NCBI RefSeq assembly: GCF_000800805.1 | Contig: NZ_CP010070.1 | Location: 372,001 to 436,000 of the forward strand | Length of the DNA: 64,000 bases | Origin: Candidatus Methanoplasma termitum | Lineage (GTDB): Archaea > Thermoplasmatota > Thermoplasmata > Methanomassiliicoccales > Methanomethylophilaceae | Reading direction: 5' to 3' | Part shown: positions 53,607 to 58,537 of the stretch, piece after piece | How the letters are laid out: each line of letters opens with the position of its first letter | How positions within the stretch are numbered: position 1 is the first letter of the stretch | Program-made: the position numbers and the translations under genes | The notes under the pieces: model-generated | Database searches by the model: none | Told to the model about the DNA's origin: nothing | Seen by the model: only the letters and a program-made list of their open reading frames with translations

Positions 53607-56600
53607 ATGTCATCAAAGAATAATCGTGCAAATATAAATGAGACCAACGAAAGACTATACAGGAGAAGTTACTCTGGCTCAAGAGCTACGAAAAATGCTC
53701 TTTTTGTAACTCTTTTGTTAGTTGTCGCCGCACTGGCGGGGGCAACATTGTTTGATAAGGGCGCAGATACATCTTCTGCCGCCCCCGGAGACTGGACGTT
53801 ATCGCACACATCAGGCTTTACAGAAGTGCGCACTATATTGAATTCTGAGACGAATAACGGAAGCGTTACGCTTGAAGAAGGGTATATATATATCTGATCG
53901 AGGTCAGCGGCGCTCAGGGCAGCGCGGGCGGCGGAGTGAACAGTAATGCCGACGGCGGCAATGGAGGTGTTGTTGCCGCATGGTTGGATCTGACCAGACC
54001 GGGGGAACAGGCTATACAGGTCAGCTATCTGACAGGCAACGTAGGCAGCTCGGGTGCCGGCGGAATAGGGAATCTCAAAAGCGGCGGTGCCGGCGGCGGT
54101 GCGACCGTTCTGACCTATGACGGGACCACAATACTTGTGGCCGGCGGAGGGGGCGGAGGAGGAGCAGAGGCTACCGATGACCAACAACATGGTGGTGCCG
54201 GCGGTATCGGCGGAACCATGAGCAGCACATCAGCATCTTACGCCAACGGTACTGTCTATTACGGCGGCGATGGGTACTTAAGCATAGACAGCAAAGGTTC
54301 CGTCACCGACAGCAACGGTAAAGGCGGCACCACTGCCGGCGGAGCCGGGGGCGTTGCGGGAAATAAGGGAACGATCGGCATCAACGGCGGCAGCTCGCTG
54401 ACCCCCGGCGGCAACAACGGCGGTGCGGGCGGCGGAAACTATGAAGGATCCGGAGGAGGAGGCGGAGGCACCGGTTTCACGGGAGGCGGAGGTGCAGGCG
54501 GAAGCGGTAATCAAGGGTACTCTACCGGCGCCGGCGGCGGAGGCGGTTCAAGTTATATCAGCAACAGTTTATCCTATGGTACGCCAACAGTCTCTACGAA
54601 CAGTGGTGCTGGGCATATCACCATCATCCAATATGCATTCAAGGAGGCGGCCAGGATACATGCCGGCCCCCAGACTGTAACTTATTCCGGCTCTCCTCAG
54701 ACAATAATCGAAACTACAGCCACAGTCGAAGGATTGACGACCGGAATTATACCGACTAACTCCGCTTACTATCTGAAGTTCACATATACGGGCACACTCA
54801 GAGACGGAACGGCATATGGTCCGACCGATGTCGCGCCGACCGATGCGGGTACCTATTCCGTGAATGTCGATCTGAATTACAACACAGACAGATACTATTT
54901 TGCACTTCCCGGAGATCCGCTTTATAATTCGCTCAACCCGGATGGACCGGTGACAGTAACACTGATAATTGATTCAAAACCGTTGATCAAACCGACTGCG
55001 ATCATAACCAGGGTCCCGTGGATAGACAATTCAACACCCGTGACACTCCCTCTGAATGATTTCGACGGCAACGCAATGGACATCACAGGCAATGTCTATA
55101 GCATGATAGGTAGCTATACAGCCACTATCTCGCTAAAAGATGTGTGGAACTACTATTGGGACGGCACGGCATTCGACACGGCCCCCTTTGACATACCCTG
55201 GGAGGTCGTGGACAGTTGGAAGTTCACGGGTACGATCACCTTTTTCGACCCCACCAACCCATCACACCCTCTCAATGGCGAACCCATCTCGGATGTCGTA
55301 GTGTCCTATTATTTAATACATAACGGCGTAAAAAGTCCTCTCTTGTACTCTGCACCCAGCCTTTCAGATGGGAGTTATGTGGTACGTTTCCCGATAGGAG
55401 ACAGCGTCGAGATCAATGATGTGGTGAGGGAAGGTTATCAACTATCCGATAACAGTCAATTGCCGGCGAACCCGATCATCAATGACGGGGATATCTTGGA
55501 TTTCACGATGTATTTCGATTCAAGCGTGACATTTACGATATCTGGCCATGTGGAATTCTACGACTGGAGGCTTTCTCAAACTTGGCAGGACATGCTGAAC
55601 GGCTACCTGATGAATCTGGTCAAAATAGAATACTCCGTTAACGGCGTCGACCAACCGCCCATAATGACCGACCCAGATGGGTATTTTGATATACAAGCCC
55701 ACTCAGGAGACGAGATCGTAATAAAAGGACTCACTAAGGCGGGATTTGTGTTGAATGCGGCAGGCGATGAAAATATGTACTCTACATCTCCCTCATCACC
55801 TTGGGTGCCATTCCAACCGTCGCCGCTTCATTTCTTCCTTGATAAGAATATCGAGCCGAATTTCTCAATGAGATATGCGAATGAAGCCCACCCTATGATA
55901 ATCACGGTTGTGGATCAGGACGGGAATGAAATGGAGGGCGTAAAGATATCTTTCACCGTATATGTCGATCTTGAGGAAGACGAATATAATCCAACACTCC
56001 CAATTAACGAAGAACGTACCGTTGACAGGACAGAAAAAGAAGTGATAACGCAAGATCTGCACGGGGATAAATTTGCCGAAATAGTGGTGGAGGCTCCGGA
56101 AGGATATGTTCCTGGACTCGGCGACTATTGGCTTTGGGTAAAAATAGGTTCCTTGGATTATACGGGATACTTAGTAGATGAGACCACGCCTACCTACAAC
56201 GGCGGAGATTGGCCGGCGGACTGGAAGTGGACATGGGTCATGGACAATGATGTCAATGCTCCGATACTATTGACCTTCGTGATGATAAAGGCGGCCGTTG
56301 TGACGTTCGATCCGAACAACGGCGGTCCGCTCAACGGAGGAGATTTGCCTTGGTCCATCCTGGTCAGACCGTCAAGCTATGTAAGCGATCCTTCGCTAAA
56401 GGAAGACGGCACACCCGCGTATGAATACGGCAGTATGACACTTGTCGGATGGTACGCCAGCGGTTCCGATGTTCCGTGGGACTTCAGTAACGATGCAGTT
56501 TTAGGCGACATGACATTGACCGCGATGTGGGGCTGGAATGTGACGTTCGATGTAAAGAACAACACAGGAGGCACGATCACCGCAGCGGTCGGTTCAACTC

Positions 56601-58537
56601 AGATCACATCACCGGCCAAGGTCATTGACGGTAAGACCGTCGACTTTGATGCAACGCCCGATGCAGGGTGGTGCGTAAAGGCCTGGTACGTGGACGGAAT
56701 AGAAGTTCCAGGTGTAACATCGGAAACATTCTCCTATCAGATCACCGCTGACACAGATGTCACGGTAGAGTTTGAACCGATGTTCGATACGATCTACGAC
56801 GACAACGGCGGAACCGGCGGACCCGGAACGATATCCGACAGGATAGCGGCCACATACCCGCTGTCCACACCGAACCCGACACATGCTCAGGTCTCAGGAG
56901 TGAACGTCCTGTTCATCGGATGGACCCTTGACAACACAACGTCAGGGGTCATACTCGAACACGGCGGCACTGTCCCGACCCTCGAAACGGACGTCACAAT
57001 AACCAACGCCGACGTGACCCTCTACGCAGTATGGGGATACGACCGCAACAACGACGGAACGCCCGATGTGAACGAGACCGGATACGACACGATCTACGAC
57101 GACAACGGCGGAACCGGCGGACCCGGAACGATATCCGACAGGATAGCGGCCACATACCCGCTGTCCACACCGAACCCGACACATGTTCAGGTATCGGGAG
57201 TGAACGTCCTGTTCATCGGATGGACCCTTGACAACACAACGTCAGGGGTCATACTCGAACACGGCGACACCGTTCCGACCCTCGAAACGGACGTCACCAT
57301 AACCAACGCCGACGTGACCCTCTACGCCGTATGGGGATACGACCGCAACGGCGACGGAATACCGGATATTCTGGAGACCACATACACACTTACCTACAAC
57401 GCTAACGGCGGCAACGCATCATCGGTGCCGGCACCTGTCCCTGATATCCTTATTTATACAGACTATCCATTGAACTCAACCACATTGCCCACCCATGCCA
57501 ATGCGGCTGATGGCAGGGCAATAGTCTTTGCAGGATGGAAGGGATCGGCCGACACGAAAATCTACGCTCCAACTGATACGATCACAGGGATTATTACAAC
57601 TGTTCATATGGTAAAGAATACCACTGTTTTCGCAACATGGAAGTATGTTTCCGTGCCTGTCCCGCCGCAGCCTAAGCTATACACAATTACCGCATCCGCC
57701 GACTCGGGTTCCGTAATATCTCCGAGCGGAAGAGTCACAGTGCAGGAGGGCGACAGCAAGACGTTCACCTTCTCAGCGAAGGACGGTTACACAATAGCGG
57801 AAGTGTGGATAGACAGCACGTATCAGCTCTCACAAGCGGAAATAAACAGCGGATCCTACACTTTCACAAATGTGATGTCCAACCATACCATAGCTGTGAA
57901 GAGCATTGTCGGCCCAAGAGCAAGCGACATAATCCTGACGATCAGCATCGCACAAGGGAACGGATATGAAGAATACAGCATCAACGGCGGGGGCTTCACC
58001 AGATACTCCGGACCTGTTACATTACAGGCCGGAGACAACGTTTCCGTAAGGGCGATCGCAGCCGACGGTTACCGCTTCGTCAAGTGGGAGACCCCGAGTG
58101 TCAACACGAATTCTTTGTTCACCATCAATGATGTCAGAGTGTCCGTGCACCTTGACCTATACTTCGCAACAAGCGACACCAGCGCCGTCAGCGGCAACAG
58201 TGTCCCGTGGCTGATAATAGGTCTGCTGATCCTAATTATCCTGCTGGTATTGTTCCTGCTGTTCCTGCTCTGGGTAAGGTCCGGACTCTTCGTCAAGGCC
58301 CTGAAGAACGGCGAAGCTGTATCGGGAGCGGCAATAACCTTCAGAGTAGAGAAGGACGGCAAGATCGAGAACGGCATCAAGAACACAGGTTCAGGTGGCA
58401 AGTGCAAGATACCCGCGAAGAAGAAATCCACGGTCACGATCTCAACGGCGGCCAAGGATGGAAGCATAGCCGCAGGTCTGCCAATGACGGTCGTGATGGA
58501 GAGCAGGAGAGAAAAATTGGAGATACTCTTCAAGTAA
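53607..58537 (+). CDS. Giant adhesin-like surface protein, frame broken at a TA repeat
   Basis: From ATG 53607 the product has a cytoplasmic start, a membrane helix (about residues 30-49), then stops at residue 96 (TGA 53895) right after an 11-base TATATATATAT run. Removing one TA unit joins it to the 1,550-residue downstream frame, reading GYIYLIEVSGAQG across the junction; the total is then 1,642 residues. Order of parts: a Gly-rich domain (to about 337); beta-sandwich modules with carboxypeptidase-regulatory-like segments (SDGSYVVRFPIGD); several Listeria-Bacteroides-type repeats (TFDPNNGG to GWYASG); a duplicated 100-residue unit; a C-terminal membrane helix (about 1534-1556); and a small basic domain. 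It resembles the adhesin-like proteins of gut methanogens. OFF as written. Confidence 0.8.
53883..53893 (+). repeat. TA dinucleotide repeat at the adhesin frame break
   Basis: TATATATATAT, 5.5 units. A length of 0 modulo 3 (9 or 15 bases) keeps the adhesin open; the present 11 bases cause TGA three bases later. It lies 92 codons after the start and beyond the membrane segment. Confidence 0.9.
56789..57360 (+). repeat. Two 300-bp-period tandem copies in the adhesin
   Basis: The block 56789-57060 recurs at 57089-57360 with a period of exactly 300 bases and only a few substitutions (for example GCTCAGGTCTCA against GTTCAGGTATCG). Both encode DDNGGTGGPGTISDR through LYAVWGYDRN, a Listeria-Bacteroides-type repeat plus a short Asp/Asn-rich linker. 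High nucleotide identity suggests recent duplication or ongoing homogenisation, and the number of copies may vary. Confidence 0.88.

Follow-up and report, generated by a model that had tools for sequence, protein, structure and literature searches.

Why is a putative adhesin gene of "Ca. Methanoplasma termitum" divided between two reading frames at a run of TA dinucleotides, and does this run act as a switch? The genome of strain MpT1 has been reported as complete (1.49 Mb, 49% GC, CP010070; PMC5011839), and the assembly analyzed here is one contig of 1,488,669 bp with 49% GC (G000:C1). The window, a stretch of 64,000 nucleotides, covers positions 372001-436000 of this contig. Positions below 64,000 refer to the window and its plus strand, and larger positions refer to the contig.

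Layout of the split gene

The original prediction described a surface-protein gene that is split at a TA run, with a start-proximal frame that harbors a ribosome-binding site, a TATA box, and a membrane helix, and with a long frame downstream. All of these elements can be located in the sequence. The 5′ frame comprises 96 codons (53607-53897), which are defined by the sequence, the ORF list, and the homologue alignment. It starts with an ATG at 53607-53609 and ends with a TGA at 53895-53897, just past TATATATATAT. This TA run (53883-53893) is 11 bp long, contains five full units, and carries one TA unit more than the in-frame form that is implied by the homologues. A ribosome-binding site GGTGA (53598-53602) can be read 4 nt 5′ of the ATG, and a TATA-like box TTTATAAA (53532-53539), which likely marks the promoter, lies about 70 bp 5′ of it. 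The 5′ frame encodes an N-terminal signal-anchor helix with the hydrophobic stretch KNALFVTLLLVVAALAGATLF and the first strands of a glycine-rich domain. Termination at the TGA leaves no complete domain in the product.

The remainder of the adhesin is encoded by the 3′ frame (53885-58537), whose codons begin at 53885, 53888, and so forth. It extends over 1,553 codons from stop to stop, is open to a TAA at 58535-58537, and contains no other lesion. Removal of one TA unit fuses the two frames, and the junction then reads ...LEEG-YIYLIEVSGAQGS..., which is identical to the earlier reading. The signal helix and the C-terminal membrane anchor are both present in the window gene, but in different frames; in the paralogues they share one frame.

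Homologues across the junction

A search of the joined N-terminal protein against 147 genomes of the order yielded homologues in genus g8, which belongs to the same family. Their alignment, which had been proposed as a check, shows that the junction is crossed in a single frame in G065, G067, G068, and G070, with partial homologues in G069. The two frames of the window therefore were one gene. The homologue in G067 is a 2,360-residue open frame, to which residues 2-1282 of the joined protein align in one stretch with 29% identity (E 1e-118). Its junction codons are GGA TAC ATA TAT CTC GTG, and the junction in the window is GGG TAT ATA TAT AT CTG ATC. Since the two differ by one 2-nt unit, the surplus in the window amounts to exactly one TA unit, and gain or loss of one unit breaks or restores a reading frame that is otherwise intact. 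In the protein, the run corresponds to a conserved Tyr-Ile-Tyr (YIY) strand, for which the homologues use the codons TACATATATCTC, TATACATAC, TACATTTATTTC, and TACCTGTACAAG, so that the repeat itself is not kept and is broken by a C. Short peptide patterns had no match among the GTDB contigs that were scanned, and no N-terminal or glycine-rich homologue was found in 16 congeners.

The same alignment bears on two readings in which the deposited sequence would be functional. Some full-length protein might arise at the TA run by programmed −1 frameshifting or by slippage during transcription, since a −1 shift just 5′ of the TGA would fuse the frames and alternating TA could allow RNA polymerase slippage. 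This is very improbable, as an X XXY YYZ slippery heptamer is absent, the downstream RNA structure is not unusual (z -0.62), a search of Rfam gave no match, and the homologues need no shift. Slightly more remote still is a pair of separate genes, one for a membrane peptide of 96 residues and one for an adhesin that is translated from an internal GTG at 53936. The GTG lies 41 nt past the stop, but a protein starting there has neither a signal peptide nor the first strand of the domain, and the homologues are single genes.

Age of the lesion

Downstream decay mutations, which would mark a plain pseudogene, were looked for in the 1,553 codons of the 3′ frame, and none are present. Over the last ~295 codons, dN/dS is 0.19-0.27 against four intact paralogues, compared to 0.19-0.28 among those paralogues. 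An old or decaying pseudogene is ruled out by the single lesion and the lack of relaxed selection. In the 3′ frame, 3.6% of substitutions are stop-making, and indels were assumed to amount to 5-10% of substitutions. With this assumed indel share, the absence of any further lesion in 4.6 kb limits the neutral divergence since inactivation to less than about 0.5-0.8%. The inactivation, if real, is therefore recent, because dN/dS is unchanged and a second lesion is missing.

A true old pseudogene of the same adhesin family is available for comparison in the same genome. It is a decayed remnant of a C-terminal anchor at 919990-920260 that contains several stops and lies near a run of nine G.

Frameshifts elsewhere in the assembly

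A Viterbi coding-potential scan for frameshifts covered ~358 kb of coding sequence in regions that contain surface genes and TA runs, which is divided, as estimated from gene lengths, into about 108 kb of surface genes and 250 kb of other genes. Many of the calls were overlapping genes and were removed by start-codon checks. True internal frameshifts occur only in surface genes, namely the window gene and genes near 443727, 566189, and 1192461, and none was found in the ~250 kb of non-surface genes. The other breaks are located within internal repeats or in regions rich in glycine; by eye, none lies at a simple repeat. A repeat is thus not required for surface genes of this assembly to be broken or mis-assembled. 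The gene near 566189, which spans 560643-568999, contains more than one frameshift, some of them in compensating pairs, which are suggestive of assembly errors. The extra TA is read as an ordinary slippage mutation and less likely as a sequencing error.

The split is explained, with moderate confidence, as a probable recent slippage frameshift that is reversible at a low rate and amounts to a newly arisen null allele of a surface-gene family that changes fast. One TA unit would have been gained when replication slipped within a TA run of 9 bp, coding for the Tyr-Ile-Tyr strand, and the reading frame would be lost after codon 96. The expected product would be a short membrane peptide that is truncated within the first domain. 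Reversion by loss of a unit would be possible in principle, at the low rate that is expected of five repeat units. Both slippage as the mechanism and the correctness of the deposited base count are presumed here. The frameshifted surface genes near 443727, 566189, and 1192461 might mean assembly trouble in such genes, but the window break, unlike theirs, lies outside internal repeats and glycine-rich stretches. The lesion resembles recent frameshift pseudogenes of surface-gene families in its one frameshift, its otherwise intact gene, and a family with other broken members. It differs from them in being a 2-nt repeat unit, which is easily reversible in principle.

A sequencing or assembly error, with a chromosome that truly has 9 bp and an intact gene, is less likely and still has to be reckoned with. 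It would fit the otherwise perfect window gene and its unchanged signature of selection, and the same assembly has surface-gene frameshifts off simple repeats, including the compensating pairs in 560643-568999. The clean ~250 kb of other genes, however, point to a low base error rate, and the break lies in unique sequence and concerns a two-nucleotide unit, unlike typical homopolymer errors. The earlier argument that dinucleotide miscounts are rare holds insofar as it lowers the probability of an error, which nevertheless retains a substantial minority share.

An interruption of another kind is present in the surface gene at 703006-705540 on the minus strand, in which an in-frame TAG stands right before the signal helix (MQKKIILKGSKII*TALFIAAVSV). 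This TAG is a nonsense mutation or else encodes pyrrolysine. For the relative ISO4-H5, amber codons have been reported in an adhesin-like gene (PMC5011839).

The TA run as a proposed phase-variation switch

Contingency loci built on simple repeats are described mainly in bacterial pathogens. If the TA run really varied, gut methanogens would share the bacterial gambling switch for surface proteins that is used against phages and hosts. Such evolved phase variation, in which slipped-strand changes in the run toggle the adhesin within a population, is unlikely. It would be in keeping with a start-proximal run in a surface gene that is off by one unit with the remainder intact, and with a 31-bp (AT)15 tract that precedes another surface gene of the same genome. 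However, the five units of the run fall below the published cut-offs for dinucleotide tracts, which are at least six units in Campylobacter (PMC6321876) and at least eight units in Neisseria, where no length changes were seen in dinucleotide tracts (PMC5953494). Dinucleotide loci of exactly five units in H. influenzae likewise gave no evidence for phase variation (PMC2651432). The run is moreover dictated by the conserved YIY motif and C-interrupted in homologues, and no other surface-gene break was found at a simple repeat. The proposed ON/OFF switching accordingly finds no support in a sub-threshold repeat that homologues do not keep, in a genome whose other breaks lie off repeats. The part that does hold up is that one surface-protein gene is divided at the TA run by a change of 2 nt in length; as decay downstream is absent, it is neither an old pseudogene nor a pair of genes. 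The H. influenzae hifA/hifB promoter with (TA)9-11 (cited in PMC2651432) is similar to the window gene in its TA run and its surface protein; in the window, however, the run lies inside the coding frame and has only five units.

Based on genome size and dinucleotide make-up, 0.28 TA runs of at least 11 bp are expected per genome, compared to four places seen, so that the tract by itself is only mildly unusual. The other three runs appear to lie outside coding regions, which leaves the window run as the only one in a coding frame. Its position at the frame break is not chance, because the homologues join both coding frames.

Among the TA runs of the genome, the 31-bp (AT)15 tract at 481231-481261 is the longest; it ends 149 bp 5′ of the start codon (ATG) for a SpaA-type surface protein of 919 residues. 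Runs of 31 bp are expected by chance at 7e-14 per genome, and the sole close homologue of the SpaA-type protein, in G007, is without such a run. The distance of 149 bp is inside the limit of 200 bp from the ATG that PhasomeIt sets for promoter tracts (PMC5953494), and the arrangement resembles the hifA/hifB promoter switch. This tract is a strong candidate for promoter phase variation and a better one than the window TA run. A general scheme in which methanogen adhesins are phase-variable via TA repeats, the window gene in its coding frame and the SpaA-type gene via (AT)15, is slightly more doubtful than the switch in the window. If true, it would extend simple-repeat contingency loci to gut archaea, for which an archaea-wide mapping of phase-variation loci is still needed according to a 2025 review (PMC11868660). 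For now, the locus is of value as a probable case of very recent and reversible gene loss among rapidly changing adhesins of an archaeon, and as a pointer to the stronger tract.

Genomic neighborhood

The adhesin gene lies between nth and hypA, in a gap (52310-58660) that is a variable spot and is empty in most Methanoplasma genomes. nth abuts hypA directly or nearly in five other Methanoplasma genomes that have both on one contig. Elsewhere the gap is filled with an aquaporin-like gene (G001), a surface-protein-like gene (G012), or other genes (G003). No orthologue of the adhesin was found at this position in the congeners whose nth-hypA junction could be examined. As nth and hypA adjoin elsewhere or flank unrelated genes, the adhesin is a young, lineage-specific insert in a variable spot.

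An IS element with a DDE transposase (52278-53299) is located between nth and the adhesin. It has 22-bp ends and a 7-bp target duplication AGAAAAG (52271-52277 and 53300-53306), is present in four identical copies in the genome, and replaces the final residues of nth. Its insertion into the nth-adhesin gap came later than the adhesin locus. The element was considered as the cause of the break and rejected, as it stops ~300 bp 5′ of the ATG and its target duplication is clean.

Domain architecture and surface-protein family

The product of the joined gene is best explained as a membrane-anchored, adhesin-like surface protein of ~1,640 residues. Its exposure on the surface is suggested by the membrane helices and the Flg_new_2 repeats. 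The N-terminal glycine-rich domain (53885-54640), for which an ALK/LTK-GRD-like fold was predicted on the G067 homologue, is followed by a Listeria-Bacteroides repeat (Flg_new, PF09479; 56375-56524; 28.4 bits, cut-off 27), a divergent InlB B-repeat (Flg_new_2, PF18998; 56549-56779; 39.5 bits, cut-off 23.6), and two tandem 300-bp copies that are 93% identical (56785-57384). A C-terminal membrane helix (58202-58279) precedes a cytoplasmic tail that is common to the paralogues. The genome encodes ~20 related surface genes, the majority of which are open from the signal helix through the end.

Repeat proteins of the Listeria-Bacteroides type are a known trait of gut Methanomassiliicoccales (PMC7883539). 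The window gene resembles these Flg_new/Flg_new_2 surface proteins in its repeats above the Pfam cut-off, its two terminal helices, and its large multi-gene family. It differs in its N-terminal glycine-rich domain, of which no relative was found in its own genome, and in being out of frame.

The AF2 model of the G067 glycine-rich domain has a mean pLDDT of 59.6 with a better core, and the junction falls within a confident strand (residues 105-111). A Foldseek search with this model places the ALK/LTK glycine-rich domain on top (PDB 7nx1 and 7lrz, E 3e-6, probability 1.0), and ALK/LTK chains occupy the top 15 places, but with a TM of about 0.3 and a low-confidence model. The corresponding Pfam family, PF12810, matches two homologues weakly (14 and 10 bits, cut-off 24.5) and has no match in the window protein or its own genome. 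A sequence search of the glycine-rich part against the PDB gave no match. Surface proteins of the sister genus (L101:2903-9918; G065, G068, G069, and G070) have in common a signal helix and an ALK/LTK-like glycine-rich domain, which possibly represents an undescribed archaeal branch of the ALK/LTK domain.
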